Source: a virus
Strand: one strand, 5' to 3'
Virus record (IMG/VR): IMGVR_UViG_3300032285_001869
Span: 1-22,311 of that record
Length of the DNA stretch: 22,311 bases
A program made the translations under genes and the position numbers. This document shows, one piece after another, positions 2,038 through 14,260 of the stretch. Below the pieces are notes generated by a model. It did not search any database and was not told the origin of the DNA. It saw nothing but the letters and a program-made list of their open reading frames with translations. How positions within the stretch are numbered: the first letter of the stretch is position 1; each line of letters begins with the position of its first letter.

Positions 2038-2570
2038 TTTACGCCTGCTATATTTTTAACAGCACCTAAGGATTGCTCGATGCTCTTGATGTAAGACTGT
2101 AAGTCTGCTTGCTGTTTAGCTGCTGCCTGTGTTGCCTGTTGCTGTTGCTGTTGTTGCTGCGATGCTTGTTGTGTAGTCTGCTGTGGAGCTGCTTGTGTGG
2201 TACCGCCACCTGTACCGCCACCTGTACCGCCACCTAATGCTCCTGCTACATTACTAACTGTATCAACAGCATTGCCAACTTTGTTAACTACACCCCCAAC
2301 TTTACTGGCTGCGTTTCCAACTGTACTAGCTGTCTTTTGTGCTGCTGAACCTATACGGCTGCCTACAGCAGTAGCACCTCTGCCAATAGCAGAAGCTGCT
2401 GTACCTACGCCACGTGCTGCCGCACCAATTCCACTAGCTGCGGCTCTACCTAGTGCCATAGCACCTTGACCCACGGCTGCTCCAACTCTAGCTGCTCCGG
2501 CGGCTAGGGCTGGTAGGAACTCGTCTAGTTGTTCACGCTCCTTTGGGGAGACAAACTCGTCTAATCTCAT
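2034..2570 (-). CDS. Low-complexity Ala/Gly-rich, Gln-rich protein (178 aa)
   Basis: The protein starts MRLDEFVSPKE. Residues about 20-115 are almost entirely Ala, Gly, Val, Ser and Thr with periodic Arg/Lys, which reads as long, weakly amphipathic helices with glycine zipper-like spacing. A GGGT triple repeat follows, then a Gln/Ala tract with eight consecutive Gln, and a short C-terminal helix ending in VK. No enzyme motif is visible. Such composition suits a membrane-inserting, pore-forming or scaffolding protein, but this is inference. It is coupled at both ends by 4-nt ATGA overlaps (2570-2567 and 2037-2034). The coding DNA carries a 12-bp tandem repeat and CAG-type triplets prone to slippage. 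Confidence 0.7.
   Translation of the reverse strand: MRLDEFVSPKEREQLDEFLPALAAGAARVGAAVGQGAMALGRAAASGIGAAARGVGTAASAIGRGATAVGSRIGSAAQKTASTVGNAASKVGGVVNKVGNAVDTVSNVAGALGGGTGGGTGGGTTQAAPQQTTQQASQQQQQQQQATQAAAKQQADLQSYIKSIEQSLGAVKNIAGVK
2201..2235. repeat. Three tandem 12-bp units encoding GGGT
   Basis: The plus strand shows taccgccacctg repeated three times (2201, 2213, 2225) with only the last base changed. It encodes the glycine linker of the 178-aa protein. A nearby run of gctgtt-type triplets (about 2135-2160) encodes its polyglutamine tract. Confidence 0.9.
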
Positions 2571-3745
2571 CCAGCTAATGTCTTTAATAGTCTATTGCTG
2601 TACTCAATGCTTTCGCGTTTAGCACGGCCTGCTTCTTCTGCTCCGCCTGCTGCTGGTTCAGCTGCTGCGAAATCATCTGCTGGTGCTTCCATGTCTGCGT
2701 TCATAGCATCTGGTGCTGCTGGATCAGCAAAGTCACCGCCTTCTGGTGCTGGTGCTTCCATGTCTGTTCCTGTTGGCTCACCACCGATCATATCTTCTGG
2801 TTGAGCATCACCTGTTAGTGTGCGCACACCGTTTGACATTGTTTCACGTGTGGTTTTTAGTGCTGCTAATGCTGTCTGAATAGCAGGAGCAACTGCGGTC
2901 AAGAATGCCTTGGCCTGTTGCTGCCCCATTTCATCACGGATTGTATCACCTAATGATAATAGCTGATCGTTTTCCATGCCACTTAATTCTTCAATCCAAC
3001 GGCTAACTCTGTCAACCATTGTTTTTGCCGTTACCACAGCACTGGCTTTGTCTGTGGCGCTTTCTCTAACTTGACTCATATCTTCTCCTTGAATGCTTTC
3101 GTCATGGCCATTGTAGCCGTAATCTTCATCTGATCCAAACCCTGCTGAAGCAAGAGCGTATGAATCGTCAGTCTCACCACCTTCGTCGTGATCTCTGCTA
3201 GCCCACTGATCTTCAGCATCTTCCTGGGCTGCTTCTATATAGTCTCTACTGTAGTCAGGGTCAGATAAAAGATGCTTGATCATGTAATCGTCTACTTTAG
3301 CGTTACGATTAGCATATTCATCAGTGACTTCACCTTGTAGTGATTTTGGATCTACTGTTACTCGTCCTGACTCGTGATCTACGTGTGCTGTATAATAAAG
3401 TACTCCACCTGCTTCTTCGCCGTCATCGCCAATCCAGCTTACGTCAACTTGCCCATCGAATGTTTCTGGGTCATGTCCTTCTGCTGCCATTGTTTCGCGC
3501 TGTAGCAATTCTGCGTTGATAGCATCTAGCATCCATTGTGCTTTAGTAAATGCTTCGTTTTCCACAGTCTCGTTGAAGCTGGCGCTTTGTTTAAAATTGT
3601 ATACCTGAGTGCGCAATCTGTTACGAGAGTCTTCTAGCTGCTCATTGGTATAAGACTCGAACTTTACTCGTTGTCCGAAAGTTCGCTCTAATGTTTCGTT
3701 GAGCTTTTTAGAATCAGCTCTAGTAAAAAAGTCAGTTGTTTTCAT
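2567..3745 (-). CDS. Acidic 392-aa phage structural or internal protein, function unknown
   Basis: The N-terminus MKTTDFFTRADSKK resembles the capsid-targeting type of start seen elsewhere in the window. Residues about 30-85 are helical (YTNEQLEDSRNRLRT and onward). A central beta-rich part (about 95-140) and a very acidic stretch with DEDYGYNGHDE follow. Residues about 230-310 are helical, and a Pro/Ala/Asp/Glu-rich low-complexity region (about 315-375) precedes a basic C-terminal helix ending LLKTLAG. The strong charge and helix content would suit a scaffold or head-core protein of a T4-like phage, but I cannot name the family. GGGGA lies just before the ATG, and a late-promoter-like AATAAATA lies 26-33 nt upstream. 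It starts the operon that runs down to 1678. Confidence 0.75.
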   Translation of the reverse strand: MKTTDFFTRADSKKLNETLERTFGQRVKFESYTNEQLEDSRNRLRTQVYNFKQSASFNETVENEAFTKAQWMLDAINAELLQRETMAAEGHDPETFDGQVDVSWIGDDGEEAGGVLYYTAHVDHESGRVTVDPKSLQGEVTDEYANRNAKVDDYMIKHLLSDPDYSRDYIEAAQEDAEDQWASRDHDEGGETDDSYALASAGFGSDEDYGYNGHDESIQGEDMSQVRESATDKASAVVTAKTMVDRVSRWIEELSGMENDQLLSLGDTIRDEMGQQQAKAFLTAVAPAIQTALAALKTTRETMSNGVRTLTGDAQPEDMIGGEPTGTDMEAPAPEGGDFADPAAPDAMNADMEAPADDFAAAEPAAGGAEEAGRAKRESIEYSNRLLKTLAG

Positions 3746-5665: not shown

Positions 5666-6796
5666 TCAGCGTATTTTTGCGCGGTTTGCTTGAGAGAAAT
5701 GTAGTCTAGGAACAGCTTTAAAACCTGTGCCTTTTACATATCCTTCACCGCCTGGACGGCCGTTGATGCTCTGCTTGACTTCTGCTTTGGAATCCAGCTG
5801 TCCAATAACATCATCTTTGATAGCCATGATCTGCTCTAGAGTGCTAAAGATAGCTGCGAATGCTGTGCTGTGTGATTTACGATAGTCTTGTATCTTGGCC
5901 TGTTTAGGGCCGCTTACTTTGCTAGTTGTTAACCACTTGTCAAACTTGGCGTTCAAGTTGCTTAGATCACCTGTATCTACCTGTTGGTTAACAAATGTGT
6001 ATAGGGTAGCTTTAAGGTCACTCATCTTTTCTGCTGCTAGTCTTTGATCATCTAGCAGGCTGTCTATGTCGTTAGCGTGTTGCGTCACAAACTGTTTGAC
6101 CTTTTCAATGCTGCGATCATCGATAGCTGGCATGTGGTTAACTACTACAGGACCCTGTATCATGACTTCGCCTGGCTGTATACCCTTGATAGGTCCTTTC
6201 AAGGGCTGCGAGTTACCATCTAGACCTGTAAAGCTGTGTACAGCTATACCAGCTGTGCTTTTAGCCATTTGCTGACCAATGCTAGAGCCCGGAGGTATGT
6301 GATAGGTAACTGTGTTTGGAGTGAATGTATAATCACCATTTTGGTCTTTTTGCGGAGCATTGAAGTACAACAAGTCACCTTTGATGTAGCCTCTGAAAGT
6401 AGGAGCGATCATGGCTTCTAGTCTATCCCATAAGCCACCCATCTTGCCTGCGAATTCTTTTCGGCTGGCTGCTTTCTCTGGATCTTGTTTGCCGCGAGTC
6501 ATTAGCATACGCTCTAGATCAACTTGTGAAGTTACTTTGCCTTCATATCCTTTGGCTGTAAAAGCATTTCCATCTGTTAGCACGAACTGTCCTTGTTCAT
6601 TGCGTCCAAAGAACACAGCAGGGCTGCCGTCCCATTTGACAGTAACATCATCTACGCTCTTGGCCATAGCGGATAGTTCGCCTAGTGCTTCTAGTGCGCC
6701 TCGGCTACCATCAACGATAACCATGTCTTCAAAGTGCTGTAGAGTACGCCCTACTTTGGGCTTGTCTGCTTCTGCTAAAAATTCAAATGCTCTCAT
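5666..6796 (-). CDS. Ligase-like nucleotidyltransferase with capsid-targeting-like N-terminus
   Basis: I place the start at the ATG at 6796, where ATGA overlaps the stop of the upstream gene; the longer form from 6826 would add ten unlikely residues. The 376-aa protein begins MRAFEFLAEAD, very close to the T4 internal-protein start MKTYQEFIAEA, with a gp21-type LAE-A cleavage site after residue 9. The body carries covalent-nucleotidyltransferase motifs in order: V-K54-W-D-G (motif I), YIKGDLLYF at 137-145 (motif III-like), EGYVK at 351-355 and K360-AVPR (motif IV/V-like). The C-terminal EGYV...FSQAN pattern reminds me of an uncharacterised phage family, possibly DUF6267. A role in joining or capping nucleic-acid ends is inferred. 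Confidence 0.7.
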   Translation of the reverse strand: MRAFEFLAEADKPKVGRTLQHFEDMVIVDGSRGALEALGELSAMAKSVDDVTVKWDGSPAVFFGRNEQGQFVLTDGNAFTAKGYEGKVTSQVDLERMLMTRGKQDPEKAASRKEFAGKMGGLWDRLEAMIAPTFRGYIKGDLLYFNAPQKDQNGDYTFTPNTVTYHIPPGSSIGQQMAKSTAGIAVHSFTGLDGNSQPLKGPIKGIQPGEVMIQGPVVVNHMPAIDDRSIEKVKQFVTQHANDIDSLLDDQRLAAEKMSDLKATLYTFVNQQVDTGDLSNLNAKFDKWLTTSKVSGPKQAKIQDYRKSHSTAFAAIFSTLEQIMAIKDDVIGQLDSKAEVKQSINGRPGGEGYVKGTGFKAVPRLHFSQANRAKIR

Positions 6797-7566
6797 TTTA
6801 TCTTGTCCATCATTCTGCGGAACCAATTGCTATTATAGCTTTCAATCACGCTCTCGGGCAAGTCTATTCCCTGTTTACCTAGTGTTTCTCTTGCTGCTGC
6901 TACTAGTTCTTCGTAGTTTGGTAGTTTCTTGATGAACTCCAAAATGCTTTCCATGCTGTGTAGATCTTTGGGCTTGGCCATTTGACCTAGCAGCATTTTG
7001 GCCATTTGATTAGGATCTTTGGTAATAACTTCGTTTGTCTCTGCGTTTACTAATCCGTTCTTGTAACTGTATTTGAAACCTTTGGCTCTAGCTATGCTGG
7101 CCAATAGGATGTGTCTGTGTTCGCCTTTGTAAGGACTGCCTTCTAGTCCTCCTCTAACACTGAACTGTTGCCATTTAGTGTCGGGGCTAAACATGAAATC
7201 TGTTTGTGCGTAACCACTGGCTTTATCACCATTGATCGGAGTCATTAGGTGTACGCTGTCTCCGCTTTTCTTGATCCAGCTCTTGTCAAAGCCAGCTGCT
7301 AATAATTTTTGTACTAGGGTTTCTTTGTCTATTTCGTTTTCATCTACAGAGAGGTCTAGGTCGCCACTGTCTGTTTTGCGTCCTGTAGTTCCTAACCATT
7401 TGATTGGAACACCAGCTTCGTCTTTGTCCATGGTAAAATCAAGACCGGACACTTTTTCGAGGTAAGCTATAGTACCAGGAATTTCGTCTCTGGTAATCCT
7501 TCTAGTTAGTACCTGTTTATCGGCGCCCTTAAAAACGTTGCCGCCTTCTTTTAATAGATCATTCAT
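6793..7566 (-). CDS. Pol beta-superfamily nucleotidyltransferase
   Basis: A 257-residue protein with the signature of the Pol beta/MNT/CCA fold: LGTTGRKTDSGDLDLSV (G59, then S67-G68-D69-L70-D71) and a third acidic residue D123 in AQTDFMFSP. The metal-binding triad D69, D71, D123 is therefore intact. FSVRGG (135-140) and a helical C-terminal part follow. The protein begins MNDLLKEGG, giving a possible gp21-type LKE-G site at residues 5-7. It overlaps the 93-aa gene by 8 nt and the ligase-like gene by 4 nt (ATGA), so the three are made together. It should transfer a nucleotide to a nucleic acid, protein or small molecule; the substrate cannot be told from the sequence. Confidence 0.75.
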   Translation of the reverse strand: MNDLLKEGGNVFKGADKQVLTRRITRDEIPGTIAYLEKVSGLDFTMDKDEAGVPIKWLGTTGRKTDSGDLDLSVDENEIDKETLVQKLLAAGFDKSWIKKSGDSVHLMTPINGDKASGYAQTDFMFSPDTKWQQFSVRGGLEGSPYKGEHRHILLASIARAKGFKYSYKNGLVNAETNEVITKDPNQMAKMLLGQMAKPKDLHSMESILEFIKKLPNYEELVAAARETLGKQGIDLPESVIESYNSNWFRRMMDKIK

Positions 7567-7840
7567 CTTTGGTTTCTAATTTTTTCTTCATTTTACGTGC
7601 TTCCGATATCTTACGGATGCCACGTGTAAATTTAGCAGGATCTTTGCCTTTGATAGCGTTTAGTAGTCTACGCTCTAATTCATCCGCCATTTCGGGCTCA
7701 TAGTGTTTGTTTAGGGATTCTATCAAATTGATAGCACTATTGATGATGTTGGTGGCTCTGCTTTCCATTAGAGCATCAGTGTTGCGAAGTGATGCTACTT
7801 GGTTCAGTTCCTGTAAAATCGATCGAGTGCTTATTTTCAT
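7559..7840 (-). CDS. Small helical basic protein (93 aa)
   Basis: Not recognised. It is almost wholly helical, with MKISTRSILQELNQVAS at the N-terminus (a weak LQE-L site), a middle helix NIINSAINLIESL, and a basic tail KKISEARKMKKKLETKDE-like that could bind nucleic acid. The stop overlaps the nucleotidyltransferase start by 8 nt (AAAGATGAATGA). AGGAAAGG provides a good ribosome-binding site. It is the first gene of the minus-strand trio, so it may be a partner or adaptor of the two nucleotidyltransferases. Confidence 0.7.
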   Translation of the reverse strand: MKISTRSILQELNQVASLRNTDALMESRATNIINSAINLIESLNKHYEPEMADELERRLLNAIKGKDPAKFTRGIRKISEARKMKKKLETKDE

Positions 7841-9697: not shown

Positions 9698-10843
9698 CTA
9701 TCCTACTTTAGCTAGTGTGATGTCGTCCATGTTGATTTGAGGATTACGAGCACGGATTTGATCTAGTACATCTTGTCTGCTCTGACCTTGGATATTCACC
9801 GTCCTGTTAGTAGGTCCGTGTGTAGCTGCGTATGTGCCTGGGCCGTCTTGATCATCTGCTGCTGGTTCTTCAGCTGCTGGTTCTTCGGCTGCTGGTTCTT
9901 CAACTTTGGAGTTGTATGATAATGGATACTTTCTCTTGATCTCTGCTACTTCTTTAGCAACATCGTATCCGCCGCGGGCGATAACTTTAGATCTTTCTTT
10001 GATCTCTTCTGCTTTAGCTGTCATGGCATCAGCAATTTCTTTCATCAAGCCAGGGAACAGTTTAGCAAAGCGTTCGTCATTGTATGGAACATCGTGTCTA
10101 CGAGTCTGTTCAGCATCTACTAGCTGATTAGTAGCAGCATGGAACTGCCATTTGCCTTCCACTTCGTCTGATCTTGCTTTATCAAAGATAGAAACAACAG
10201 GACCGTTAGGAGCATAGTTTTGGAACCAATGTAACCCTGAACTTGATCCTGTACAGAAGTTAGCCTGTACACCGTTTGCGTTATTGAATGTGTAGCAAGC
10301 ACCGTAGTTCAAAGGAATCACTACCAAGAAACGTTCGTTGTCGATCAGTGGAATTTCTTCTTTGGTACGCTTGTGTTTTTCAATGACTTCAGCGTCTTTG
10401 ATCTTTCTTAGTTCATCTCTATATGCGCGATCACCGAGGATCTTTTGTAGCTGTCTAAGAGTTTTGAATCTGTTGAAGTCTTGATCCATCGGCTTTAGTT
10501 TGCCACGTTGGCTCAAAGCTCTCCACGCACCTAGTGCGTCACCGCCTTCACCGTTGATATCTTCATAGTCAGCAGCACCGTTGATGTACATGCGTGTTAG
10601 CCAGTCATCAAACTTGCCGTCACTGACATCACCGTAGTCTGTTGCTCTCAGTGACTTGTCTATTAGATCACTCCATAGCTTGATAAGCTCTGTGGGATCT
10701 GGCTTAGGACCTAGTCTAGCTACTGCTGCTCTAGGTATGGTGCTGTCATGTGAAATAGCGATTGTTAATCGCTTGGTCATCTTTGGATCTTTTAAGACCT
10801 TTTCGCCTGCGTTGGCTTCTTTTATAATGTTTTCTAATCTCAT
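9698..10843 (-). CDS. Probable head-packaged protein with FCTG/QFH domain (381 aa)
   Basis: The N-terminus MRLENIIKEANAGEK has a gp21-type IKE-A site after residue 9. Residues about 20-170 are helical and charged. A compact domain then holds ERFLVVIPLNYGACYTFNNAN, ANFCTGSSSGLHWFQNY, GPVVSIFDKA and KWQFHAATNQLVDAE. The W/F-C-T-A/G motif followed by an aromatic, a Gly-Pro strand and a Y/W-QFH motif recurs in many uncharacterised phage proteins I have seen; Cys and His could be catalytic, but no reaction is known. After a helix come three EEPAA repeats and a C-terminal domain (GQSRQDVLDQIRARNPQIN). ATGA overlap (10843-10840) couples it to the gene upstream. Confidence 0.7.
   Translation of the reverse strand: MRLENIIKEANAGEKVLKDPKMTKRLTIAISHDSTIPRAAVARLGPKPDPTELIKLWSDLIDKSLRATDYGDVSDGKFDDWLTRMYINGAADYEDINGEGGDALGAWRALSQRGKLKPMDQDFNRFKTLRQLQKILGDRAYRDELRKIKDAEVIEKHKRTKEEIPLIDNERFLVVIPLNYGACYTFNNANGVQANFCTGSSSGLHWFQNYAPNGPVVSIFDKARSDEVEGKWQFHAATNQLVDAEQTRRHDVPYNDERFAKLFPGLMKEIADAMTAKAEEIKERSKVIARGGYDVAKEVAEIKRKYPLSYNSKVEEPAAEEPAAEEPAADDQDGPGTYAATHGPTNRTVNIQGQSRQDVLDQIRARNPQINMDDITLAKVG
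9858..9902. repeat. Three tandem 15-bp units encoding EEPAA
   Basis: gctgctggttcttc plus one variable base is repeated three times in register at 9858, 9873 and 9888. It encodes an acidic Glu-Glu-Pro-Ala-Ala hinge between the central and C-terminal domains of the 381-aa protein. Confidence 0.92.
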
Positions 10844-11700
10844 AGTGTCACCAAAGCACGTTTAAAGAATCCTAACACTGTGCCCATCTTCTTCATGTCA
10901 CCGTTGGATATGTCTGCTAGCAGTTTTCTAGGACCATCTTGGGAAGCTGATGACCAACTGCTGCCATAGCTTTTGGTAATCTCTCCAGTCTCATCAGGAT
11001 AGTAATGACTTGCGGCCAATGCTACTGCCTGTCTAACCGCAGGTTCGATAATATCTGGGATCTCACCATAACGGATCTTGTCAAGACCGCTGTCTAATTG
11101 CTGTACGATTCTTAGCTTTCTTTCAGCTTTTTCAAAAGAATCGTTTTGGATCATGATACCGATCATGCCTTTAACGTCTGCCATAGCAGCTACCATGGCT
11201 TTTTCCCACATGGGTTTGAACTTGGTCATTAGCACAGATGTAGTAACCTGTCCTGGTGTTGCTCCTGCTTTAGCATCAGCACGTGATTTCTGTTTGTCTT
11301 TGACTGCGTGTGTATTGCGTCCTTGATAGTAAGTGTTCAACTTGCCTATCTTGCCTTTCAAAAAGTCGATGATATTGCCACCACGATCGTTCTTGAATAC
11401 ATCTACTTCTCCGCCTTTACTAGCTAGAGCAATATAGCTGCCGCTTTGTTGTTTGATAGCACCAACACCGTTAGCACCATCTATAATAACCCAAGCACCG
11501 CGACTCATGTCTTTTAGTTCACTCCATGAAATCTTAGTGATAGGTGCGTAGTCTTGTTCGTGTGATAGTCCGTATTCTCTATGTAGCTTCTGTATGACTT
11601 CTTTGCCGCCTGGGCGACCTTTAACCATATTCAGTGTGCTACTGACTTCGAATACTAGTCCTTCACAGAGTTTAGCAAATAGTTGTGTTCCGTTCATCAT
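10840..11700 (-). CDS. 286-aa protein, possible internal head protein
   Basis: Not recognised. It starts MMNGTQLFAKLCEGLVFEV, with a possible gp21-type LCE-G site. A short beta domain (SRGAWVIIDGANGVGAIKQQ, SYIALASKGGEVDVF) is followed by a basic linker rich in Lys/Arg (KDKQKSRADAKAG) and a long helical part (about 150-286). There is no Shine-Dalgarno sequence. A late-promoter-like GATAAATA (11715-11708) is placed so that RNA would begin about two bases before the ATG. The gene is coupled to the downstream 381-aa gene by ATGA. Context suggests it is made late with other head-packaged proteins. Confidence 0.68.
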   Translation of the reverse strand: MMNGTQLFAKLCEGLVFEVSSTLNMVKGRPGGKEVIQKLHREYGLSHEQDYAPITKISWSELKDMSRGAWVIIDGANGVGAIKQQSGSYIALASKGGEVDVFKNDRGGNIIDFLKGKIGKLNTYYQGRNTHAVKDKQKSRADAKAGATPGQVTTSVLMTKFKPMWEKAMVAAMADVKGMIGIMIQNDSFEKAERKLRIVQQLDSGLDKIRYGEIPDIIEPAVRQAVALAASHYYPDETGEITKSYGSSWSSASQDGPRKLLADISNGDMKKMGTVLGFFKRALVTL

Positions 11701-11707
11701 GATCTAA

Positions 11708-11715
11708 TATTTATC
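11708..11715 (-). promoter_or_regulatory. Late-promoter-like GATAAATA
   Basis: One mismatch from TATAAATA; it includes the TAA stop of the preceding gene. The expected +1 lies near 11702, two bases before the ATG at 11700, which would make the transcript nearly leaderless. Confidence 0.4.
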
Positions 11716-12514
11716 GGTTAGGCAGACGAGGACGATCATGTCCCAGTGCTGGCGTGTTAGTGTGTTCTACGCTGTCCTGTTCTGGCCAGCTATAGATGTA
11801 ATTACCAAACTCATCACGCACCAGCAACCAACGGATGCCTGCTGCGGAGTATTGCTTGATATCTGCGTTGTATCCTGGGATAGTGGTATCAAAGTCGATA
11901 TTGCCATCTCCTAGATCTTCACCATGCTGACGTACCCAATTGGCTACAGCATTGATTTCTTGTGTTGTGTTAGGACCACGACCACCTAGGTTTCCGATCA
12001 TGTGTATCTGATCAGTAGGTGTTGTTGTCATCGCACCAAATAGGTGTTTGCCCAGTGTACGGATAGCACGGCTCATGTTGCCTGGTAAGTTAGCTACCTT
12101 GTGCCACTCTGGATCTTGTACGCCATCTGCTGCTAGAGCACGACTGGCTACACTGGGTAGGTTATCTGTGTTAACTCTAGTGCTAGGCAGTGTTTCAGGT
12201 TCCTGTGTAGGATAGCCTGCGTCATCTGGATCTGCTTCAATGTCACGCATACGACCTAACAAGTCTGCCATGCGTGGATTTGCCAGCCCTGATGTCTTGC
12301 GCAGTGTATCCGATTGGCTGGCTTTCTTTAGTTCTGGAGCCTGTGGTTCATCTTGCTTAGGCTCGTCCTGTTTGGGTTCATCACGTTTAGCCAATGGCTG
12401 GTCTGCCTTTGGCTCGAACATCTTGCTGAGATCAGGATTGGGTTTATCCTGTGTTTTTGTTTTGGTTTTCTTCTTGCCTTCTTCTTCAGCAAGGTATTCG
12501 TAAAGTGATTTCAT
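11711..12514 (-). CDS. Probable head-packaged protein with strong capsid-targeting-like N-terminus (267 aa)
   Basis: I place the start at the ATG at 12514, two bases after the nuclease stop; a longer frame from 12541 would add nine residues and lose the match. The N-terminus MKSLYEYLAEEEGKK aligns with the T4 internal-protein leader MKTYQEFIAEA and offers an LAE-E cleavage site. Residues about 14-65 are a Lys/Pro/Asp/Gln-rich disordered linker with DEPKQ repeats. The C-terminal part (about 125-255) holds EWHKVANLPGNMSRAIRTLG, GNLGGRGPNTTQEINAVANW and IRWLLVRDEFGNYIYSW, which looks like a folded domain I do not know. A packaged and injected protein is inferred. Confidence 0.7.
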   Translation of the reverse strand: MKSLYEYLAEEEGKKKTKTKTQDKPNPDLSKMFEPKADQPLAKRDEPKQDEPKQDEPQAPELKKASQSDTLRKTSGLANPRMADLLGRMRDIEADPDDAGYPTQEPETLPSTRVNTDNLPSVASRALAADGVQDPEWHKVANLPGNMSRAIRTLGKHLFGAMTTTPTDQIHMIGNLGGRGPNTTQEINAVANWVRQHGEDLGDGNIDFDTTIPGYNADIKQYSAAGIRWLLVRDEFGNYIYSWPEQDSVEHTNTPALGHDRPRLPNR

Positions 12515-12515
12515 A

Positions 12516-13340
12516 TTAGTCTGCCTTCCCACATTTAGCACGTTTGGCGTTGGTTAACGCACCAAAGTCCACAGGCCATTCCTGTCCAGGCTGTAGTTCA
12601 ACTGCGCCTGCTGGAAAATGATACTGTACTCCGGCTTCTTTCATAATGTCAGCAACGGGTCTACGGAAAACACGCAGGTCATTGCCTAGATTAGGGTATG
12701 GAGCAATGTGTGGAAAACTCCATCCTGCGATCTGTTTTGTGTTATTGTTAATTACAATCTTGTAGTAACCGTGTGGAACGATAACGCCATTGCCTATCGA
12801 CTTGTCACCAGCGCCATAGTATGCCCCCACGTATATAGTATAGCTCTGGTTGGTTTGTACTGCCCAACCGCGCACGGAAGTCTCCAGTAATTTCCAAATT
12901 CCACGATTTAATGAGCCAGCCTGAGGGTACATATTTGTCATTAGGAATGACTCGTACTCGACCTGCTGGCTCCAGGACAAATCCCCGTCTGGAGCGGCAT
13001 GACCTTTGTCATAGCCTGTGCTAGCATAATCGTCTGGGCGGGCACCGTTCGGTACTGATTGGTCAGCTACGAAAGCATTAGTGCGAGCCACACAACCTAA
13101 AGCGTTTTGTGGTAGTAGTGTGTAGGCAACATAAGCAGGAATCTTTACAGGAGCATCGTATGCTACTAGATATGCTTCACGGCAAATAGGCTGTGCTTGG
13201 CGCTGTGTTTGAGCGAATCCGTAAGGACTGTGTACTTGACATTGTTGAACTGGGTTTGGAGCACGTTGATCCCAAGCATATGCTTGTGTGCCGGCCAATG
13301 CTGTTAACGAAACTAGCAGCACTGATAAAAATTTATTCAT
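12516..13340 (-). CDS. Exported DNA/RNA non-specific endonuclease (NucA/Serratia type)
   Basis: A 274-residue protein, the usual length for this family with its signal peptide. Residues 1-22 are a clear Sec signal (MNKF, hydrophobic core, cleavage after TQAYA). The beta-beta-alpha-metal motif is complete: D111-K-G-H114-AAP with the general-base His, and N145-R-G-I-W-K-L-L-E153 carrying the metal Asn and Glu at the same spacing as in Serratia nuclease. Four Cys (34, 53, 83 and one near the C-terminus) suit disulphides outside the cytoplasm. It should cut DNA and RNA with Mg2+ in the periplasm or medium. AAGGA is its ribosome-binding site, with a late-promoter-like AATAAATA upstream. Loss of the leader would keep it inside the cell; none is seen. 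Confidence 0.9.
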   Translation of the reverse strand: MNKFLSVLLVSLTALAGTQAYAWDQRAPNPVQQCQVHSPYGFAQTQRQAQPICREAYLVAYDAPVKIPAYVAYTLLPQNALGCVARTNAFVADQSVPNGARPDDYASTGYDKGHAAPDGDLSWSQQVEYESFLMTNMYPQAGSLNRGIWKLLETSVRGWAVQTNQSYTIYVGAYYGAGDKSIGNGVIVPHGYYKIVINNNTKQIAGWSFPHIAPYPNLGNDLRVFRRPVADIMKEAGVQYHFPAGAVELQPGQEWPVDFGALTNAKRAKCGKAD

Positions 13341-14011: not shown

Positions 14012-14260
14012 TTATAGCTTAGTTACATCAACACCTAATTCTGTGATTAGTTCTTTTAAGCCACCCACATACTTTTCACCTACAAAGATCTGCGGAACTT
14101 TAGTAGCATTAGGAACTACTTCACGTAGTTCTCTCCAGCTGAACTTGTTGCTGATGTTTTTAATTTCATACTCGTAGCCAGTTTCTACACATAGTTTAGC
14201 GGCCATAACGCCATCACCTGTACCATTCTGCATCCAAATTGTTATTTTTTCTTTTGCCAT
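14012..14260 (-). CDS. Glutaredoxin-fold protein lacking the CxxC active site (82 aa)
   Basis: The length and order of elements are those of a glutaredoxin: strand KITIWM, helix VMAAKLCVETG, strand YEYEIKNI, helix, then the conserved cis-Pro strand KVP56QIFVGEKYVGG67LKELI with the glutathione-binding Gly pair. The active-site CPYC is replaced by T14-G-D-G17; the only Cys is C24, inside the first helix. Ordinary dithiol or monothiol redox catalysis therefore seems lost, while the fold and possibly glutathione or protein binding are kept. GGAGC precedes the ATG inside the end of the 900-aa adhesin gene (TAATATG). It could be a tail- or host-protein-binding module; function inferred only. Confidence 0.82.
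   Translation of the reverse strand: MAKEKITIWMQNGTGDGVMAAKLCVETGYEYEIKNISNKFSWRELREVVPNATKVPQIFVGEKYVGGLKELITELGVDVTKL

Follow-up and report, generated by a model that had tools for sequence, protein, structure and literature searches.

A polymerase-like and a ligase-like protein with prohead-protease-type sites, conserved as a pair in large phages: a possible head-packaged repair module

Prohead cleavage in phage T4 falls after (L/I)xE sequences. A conserved capsid targeting sequence is found in the T4 internal proteins, some of which are injected (PMC3012670). In jumbo phages, Pol-beta nucleotidyltransferases of the RlaP type are used beside RNA ligases and are predicted to restore lost tRNA bases (PMC7824862). 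Nucleotidyltransferases are also known from phage particles and from phage effectors: the cytitidyltransferase T4-GC190 was detected in virions of cyanophage S-SM1 (PMC3037559), NMNAT-like proteins of a similar kind have repeatedly been found in cyanophage virions (PMC10665884, PMC9602691), and among the polyvalent phage effectors are Pol-beta nucleotidyltransferases for which protein modification is predicted (PMC5512222).

The locus described here lies in a 22,311-base virus record (IMGVR_UViG_3300032285_001869), which was analysed whole and is referred to as the window; it also contains tail-fibre and other structural-type genes. A tight minus-strand operon encodes, in order, a small basic protein, a Pol-beta-like protein (hereafter Pol) and a ligase-like protein. 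Its features are listed below; the arrow marks a predicted cut.

7559-7840, minus strand: small basic protein, 93 aa, matching phrog_11854 (virion structural protein) at E 2.4e-18
7559-7566, minus strand: 8-nt overlap of the small gene and the Pol gene
6793-7566, minus strand: Pol-beta-fold, family-X-like nucleotidyltransferase of 257 aa, palm and thumb (AlphaFold2, Foldseek/VIA, PolX profile)
7543-7554, minus strand: L5-K-E7↓G8, predicted prohead-protease site (from relatives' sites)
7354-7392, minus strand: Pol-beta active-site motif G59...SGD69LD71, aligning with PolX GDLD
7198-7200, minus strand: third catalytic aspartate D123 (QTD), from conservation and PolX profile alignment
6949-7125, minus strand: thumb-like part, residues 148-206, from VIA alignment to the Pol beta end (residue 335) and the PolX thumb in the profile
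6793-6796, minus strand: ATGA overlap of the Pol stop and the ligase start
5666-6796, minus strand: DUF6267 ligase-superfamily (covalent nucleotidyltransferase-like) protein, 376 aa (PF19782, AlphaFold2, fold matches)
6770-6796, minus strand: leader MRAFEFLAE, residues 1-9, predicted cut after E9 and before A10 (disordered residues 1-16, relatives' sites)
6626-6637, minus strand: motif I, K54-W-D-G57, with the predicted AMP-accepting lysine; K54, D56 and G57 invariant in 80 relatives
5732-5746, minus strand: motif IV, E351-G-Y-V-K355; E351 and G352 invariant in 80 relatives
5717-5719, minus strand: motif V lysine K360, invariant in 80 relatives

The coordinates, motifs and overlaps given in the initial annotation, together with the MRAFEFLAEAD start and LKE-GG, are all present in the sequence. 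The ligase-like gene is taken to start at the ATG at 6796; the ORF list gives an alternative TTG upstream. Homologs of the small phrog_11854 protein are labelled structural in the PA5oct and CBB records. Because gene content and order in the window agree with those of a 363,943-base relative (L012), whose head cluster is T4-like (a portal-like gene, a prohead protease of family PF03420, a scaffold-like gene and a Gp23 capsid protein), the window phage is most likely a large T4-like myovirus. Elsewhere on the minus strand of the window, a DNA/RNA non-specific endonuclease (12516-13340; PF01223, E 1.9e-37) that seems to have a signal peptide adjoins possible internal-protein genes, and a small glutaredoxin-like protein (14012-14260) seems by eye to lack the CxxC motif.

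Structure prediction bore out the Pol-beta fold that had been proposed for the first enzyme from its motifs. The AlphaFold2 model, built with 72 aligned relatives, has a pLDDT of 93.6, and its best 50 PDB matches are all family X (Pol lambda, mu and beta; Foldseek E 2e-4), a list filled by redundant PolX entries that permits no ranking of PolX against other Pol-beta families. By VIA, residues 13-206 align with Pol beta 139-335 from palm through thumb, with Z of about 10.3-10.8 against family X over 171-178 residues (10.3-10.5 for the Pol beta rows); the model thus has a palm and thumb as in Pol beta and lambda. The GxxG..GDxD motif and a third aspartate sit on the Pol-beta palm, as in the Pol-beta superfamily at large. 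D69, D71 and D123 are invariant in 13 diverse relatives, and among the 72 aligned relatives D71 is invariant while D69 and D123 are conserved in at least 90%.

Profile comparison with 65 bacterial PolX sequences gave Prob 66 and E 5.6e-5 across palm and thumb, placing SGD69LD71 on GDLD, D123 on the third aspartate and the next helix on the PolX thumb. Control profiles, all of them shallow, scored lower: the MNT-type one (11 sequences) gave Prob 16, the CCA-type one (6 sequences) 0.9 and the RlaP one (2 sequences) 0.3. PolX downsampled to 6 sequences scored anywhere from Prob 2 to 69, always with palm and thumb covered. Because the controls are shallow and the 6-sequence PolX profiles varied so widely, sequence by itself does not settle the subfamily of Pol. 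The protein of 257 aa begins at the palm and has no N-terminal lyase/fingers domain. No family X model scored above its cut-off in the records of six relatives; DNA_pol_B_thumb appeared weakly in 4 of the 72 Pol relatives (best E 0.028), and Pol itself had no convincing Pfam, PHROG or NCBIfam match. Searching solved structures by sequence, with either protein or its profile, gave no real relative, and one scan of a genome collection with a single pattern returned no cellular relative of Pol, which is weak evidence of absence.

The ligase-like protein belongs to DUF6267 (PF19782; E 3.6e-35, 122.5 bits against a cut-off of 27), a family with no assigned function. Its members occur in over 470 sequenced phage records, most of them from cyanophages, and the literature searched does not mention the family. 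All 80 aligned relatives match PF19782. The AlphaFold2 model (pLDDT 93.4, 80 relatives) is disordered over residues 1-16, and the top 50 VIA rows are all RNA or DNA ligases at moderate Z (5.6-7.5; Foldseek E 0.03), with RNA and DNA ligases returned weakly by a viral-structure library as well. These moderate matches are compatible with the ligase-superfamily fold that the motifs had first suggested. Motifs I (KxDG), IV (EGxV) and V (K) occur in order, and the invariant residues are exactly those of these three motifs, D141 also being invariant in the 80 relatives. About 200 residues, largely helical in their latter part, separate motifs III and IV. Motif V sits at residue 360 in a protein of 376, so that the 16 residues after it leave no room for a C-terminal OB domain with motif VI, and none is present. 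PF01068, the family of ATP-dependent DNA ligases, is absent from the 25 families listed for the ligase relatives, and profile comparison found no similarity between DUF6267 and the DNA ligases that the phages themselves encode. Four relatives also carry a conventional ATP-dependent DNA ligase, which implies that the DUF6267 enzyme would be a second, specialised one. In three ligase genes (L009:6774-7988, L086:1835-3112 and L157:3051-4271) an insert, SxKYKxSINCxxPKGFSQKAHCAGRKK, lies between leader and core and resembles a shuffled module.

These properties bear on the nature of the substrate. It is possible that the pair repairs RNA, with the Pol-beta protein restoring missing nucleotides and the DUF6267 enzyme sealing the RNA, most probably tRNAs of the host or the phage that defence nucleases have cut, in which case both may still be packaged for immediate action. 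An RNA substrate is favoured by the missing OB domain, by the known pairs of RlaP and RNA ligase, and by slightly better matches to RNA ligases, led in the VIA list by Naegleria RNA ligase (Rnl; Z 7.5) and T4 Rnl1 (6.3) with DNA ligases I, III and IV at about 6, differences that amount to ties. The PolX palm-thumb fold favours DNA instead, as Pol is closest, thumb included, to template-using DNA polymerases. Furthermore, RlaP (PF10127) is absent among the Pfam families found at E<=1 for the 72 Pol relatives and gave no hit in four relative phage records, and the genes scanned beside the pair included no recognisable kinase, phosphatase or 2H end-healing enzyme. On balance we consider RNA repair somewhat less likely than action on DNA, and the strongest of the alternatives.

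The initial annotation had called for a survey of adjacency in other phages, and the pair proved to be conserved. DUF6267 was present in the same locus in 76 of 80 loci picked by similarity to Pol, and a contig end cuts two of the four exceptions; conversely, among 74 new loci picked on DUF6267 alone, 60 had Pol next to it or fused with it, 24 of them with a single fused ORF. Both gene orders occur, and fusion or fission has happened several times. A tree of 94 ligase domains requires five changes of the Pol-ligase fusion label, four of them forced by well-supported branches, and a separate ligase-Pol fusion is additional to these. Some lineages, cyanophages included, have DUF6267 without Pol.

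Three jumbo phages encode Pol near a different ligase-like protein. In Agrobacterium phage Atu_ph07 and Sinorhizobium phage Phosso, the gene for the Pol homolog overlaps another ligase-like gene with weak matches to PF09414, and in PA5oct the ligase-like gp256 lies near the Pol homolog. Aligned with the Atu_ph07/Phosso partner, the DUF6267 profile covered only motifs IV-V (E 0.095). The viral-structure search independently listed PA5oct gp256 (E 6.7e-4) and an Atu_ph07 'RNA ligase' (E 0.027) as fold relatives of DUF6267. From these partners and the listing of fold relatives it follows that the Pol family accompanies ligase-type proteins of more than one type. A search of viral contigs with the Atu_ph07 partner returned that phage alone. 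The Atu_ph07 partner speaks for RNA repair in that it hits PF09414 RNA_ligase (E 0.002, below its cut-off); on the same side, seven relative records contain no other PF09414 ligase. Atu_ph07, however, has a separate RlaP elsewhere. Two proteins encoded close to the ligase-like genes in PA5oct and DLP_6 (L175:10472-11491 and L093:4076-4993) have PDDEXK-nuclease-like motifs by eye that Pfam does not support, and PDDEXK-like nuclease partners (PA5oct gp255, DLP_6 gp65) were rejected for want of that support.

Several fusions extend beyond the two enzymes. In L119-L121 the ligase is followed by a region with another Pol-beta-like motif and then by Pol; for instance, the 990-aa proteins at L119:3918-6890 and L121:7935-10907 contain a second, distinct motif, GSAGYY..GDIDVMV, and have protease-type sites at their junctions. 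A three-way fusion (L154:3817-6006) joins Pol-beta, DUF6267 and an NMNAT-like HIGH nucleotidyltransferase, again with protease-type sites at both junctions. Such association of DUF6267, fused or adjacent, with NMNAT-like HIGH nucleotidyltransferases (in L154 and in cyanophages), proteins that are themselves found in virions, would fit injected effectors, comparable to the T4 ADP-ribosyltransferase Alt or the NMNAT-like virion proteins, that put nucleotides on host proteins or small molecules, and the Pol-beta effectors of polyvalent phage proteins would be a parallel. The polymerase thumb and the strict pairing with more than one type of ligase-type protein nevertheless indicate nucleic acids, and we regard an effector role as quite improbable.

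Both window proteins have the arrangement of a T4-type internal-protein leader, (L/I)xE↓(A/G/S) directly before the mature domain (LAE↓A in the ligase-like protein, LKE↓G in Pol). Among 93 complete, distinct Pol N-termini, [LIVMFY]xE↓[GS]G is found in 88, and the other five begin at or near the would-be mature residue (M-GG or M-S), as in the Pol homologs of Atu_ph07 and Phosso (M-GG) and PA5oct (M-SG). Of the 62 distinct unfused ligases, whose leaders vary greatly in length and sequence, 51 have [LIVMF]xE[AGS] at most 22 residues ahead of the core; within the mature parts the background is 4.2% of windows. In fused proteins the site before the ligase core is kept in 25 of 26 cases (background 8.7%), and L119 and L154 have further sites at other domain junctions. 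Binomial probabilities for these sites are very small but overstate independence, the sequences being related. The observation is well above chance: two independent searches gave about 150 loci, most of which keep the pair, the two genes are repeatedly fused, and protease-type sites are orders of magnitude more frequent than background.

The protease itself, of T4 type, is found among relatives, including the jumbo one whose Pol is closest. A gp21-type prohead protease is encoded in L012, L041 and L121, with none in the 22-kb window. In L012 and L041 the capsid protein, too, has the protease-type motif, at what we take to be the place of gp23 cleavage. In L121 the fused gene has the tail sheath gene on one side and the genes for terminase, portal and prohead protease on the other. 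Neighbouring genes are enriched in N-terminal protease-like motifs as well (14% vs 4-8%), which could mean that both proteins are ordinary, non-packaged repair or replication enzymes whose likeness to leaders is a common gene-start style of this phage group; furthermore, the conserved glutamates could serve the enzyme and not the protease. Yet the site stands directly before the core despite very different leaders and survives in nearly all fusion linkers, the fused L121 gene lies among structural genes, four relatives already have an ordinary DNA ligase, and a Pol homolog, PA5oct gp253, is recorded in virions. There is accordingly only a small chance that the enzymes stay outside the head. 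The same enrichment, about twofold over elsewhere, suggests that more proteins of the neighbourhood may be packaged. Leader-like starts (MRLENIIKEA, LCEG, MKSLYEYLAEEE) are seen in the window at 9698-10843, 10840-11700, 11711-12541 and 2567-3745, all on the minus strand.

Gp253 of the Pseudomonas phage PA5oct is a Pol homolog (profile E 1.6e-25 in a 12-protein set) annotated in its record as 'structural protein, ESI-MS/MS', so that the presence of a Pol homolog in virions is supported by one published record. The ligase-like gp256 of the same phage carries no MS-detected mark, and no direct evidence was found for DUF6267 itself in a virion. In S-SM1 the DUF6267 gene (T4-GC71) overlaps that of the virion cytitidyltransferase T4-GC190; in S-CREM2 a cytidylyltransferase (ORF154) is in the virion, and ORF153, a candidate DUF6267 protein, is not listed. 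The proposal that both window proteins are targeted to the capsid thus stands in part, upheld by protease-type leaders at the predicted sites, by the protease in the closest-Pol relative and by the PA5oct virion listing, and packaging is supported, that of the ligase-like protein as a prediction.

Computation gives the two predicted folds, intact catalytic motifs, an obligate-looking partnership, protease-type sites and a prohead protease in relatives. The best explanation, to which we assign a probability of roughly 0.4, is a packaged and injected repair pair of polymerase and ligase-like enzyme that acts on DNA. Both proteins would be made late and packed inside the phage head, where the T4-type prohead protease would trim them, and the mature proteins would be delivered with the genome. 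The small palm-and-thumb Pol would then fill a gap or extend a recessed end by adding nucleotides, leaving the DUF6267 enzyme to adenylylate the end and seal it. The substrate would most likely be incoming phage DNA, with gaps, nicks and ends left by packaging, injection and host nucleases. We infer that the ligase-like protein is packaged, that the enzymes are catalytically active and act jointly, and that they act on DNA. A bolder version, which we put forward tentatively, is that the prohead protease releases a gap-filling polymerase and a ligase from a polyprotein or operon packaged in the head, and that the two form a widespread injected machine for end joining or gap repair that mends the genome before viral gene expression, and that DUF6267 is perhaps an overlooked ligase of T4-like cyanophages.

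Injected repair by such a pair would give a testable identity to DUF6267, a family without assigned function, and to a Pol-beta family that Pfam does not assign. It suggests that phage heads may deliver repair enzymes and not only inhibitors or modifiers, and prohead maturation would gain a new use through the protease sites kept within fused proteins. The pair is also relevant to cyanophages, many of which apparently have no DNA ligase; most of a T4-like cyanophage subgroup has no recognised one (PMC7824862). In cyanophages P-HM1 and S-SM1 (L090, L330), DUF6267 lies beside the virion cytitidyltransferase and is a candidate for the missing DNA ligase of the subgroup.

Compared with described systems, the components come from known superfamilies. 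Family X polymerases (Pol beta, lambda and mu) share with Pol the palm GD(L/I)D, the third aspartate and the thumb (Z about 10.8); unlike them, Pol has no N-terminal lyase/fingers part and falls below the family-model cut-offs. A gap-filling polymerase works with a ligase in NHEJ and BER (LigD; PolX with DNA ligase), and African swine fever virus pairs PolX with a DNA ligase. The pair described here differs in its ligase family, which has no OB domain, in its predicted phage head packaging, and in that no Ku was recognised beside it. With the T4 internal proteins (IPI-IPIII and Alt, with their capsid targeting sequence and gp21 cleavage) it shares a short leader ending in a prohead-protease-type site, and T4-type head genes and protease occur in relatives of the window phage, whereas the payload is a polymerase and a ligase-like enzyme, sometimes fused with sites at the junctions. 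In RlaP systems, too, large phages use a Pol-beta nucleotidyltransferase together with an ATP-grasp-type ligase (PMC7824862); in contrast to RlaP, for which no report of virion occurrence was found in the literature searched, the pair has a PolX-like thumb and prohead-protease sites, and its 72 Pol relatives have no RlaP Pfam match. T4-GC190 likewise adjoins DUF6267 (T4-GC71) in P-HM1 and S-SM1 and is found in virions, but it is a HIGH-superfamily and not a Pol-beta nucleotidyltransferase, and these two phages have no adjacent Pol. The initial remark that no system of this form had been described therefore calls for qualification, given that jumbo phages have RlaP with RNA ligase (PMC7824862) and that NMNAT-like nucleotidyltransferases are packaged in heads (PMC3037559, PMC10665884, PMC9602691). 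No description of a virion-packaged polymerase and ligase pair with protease sites at domain junctions was found in the literature searched. Pairing and head packaging each have separate precedents, and their combination is, as far as we have found, new.
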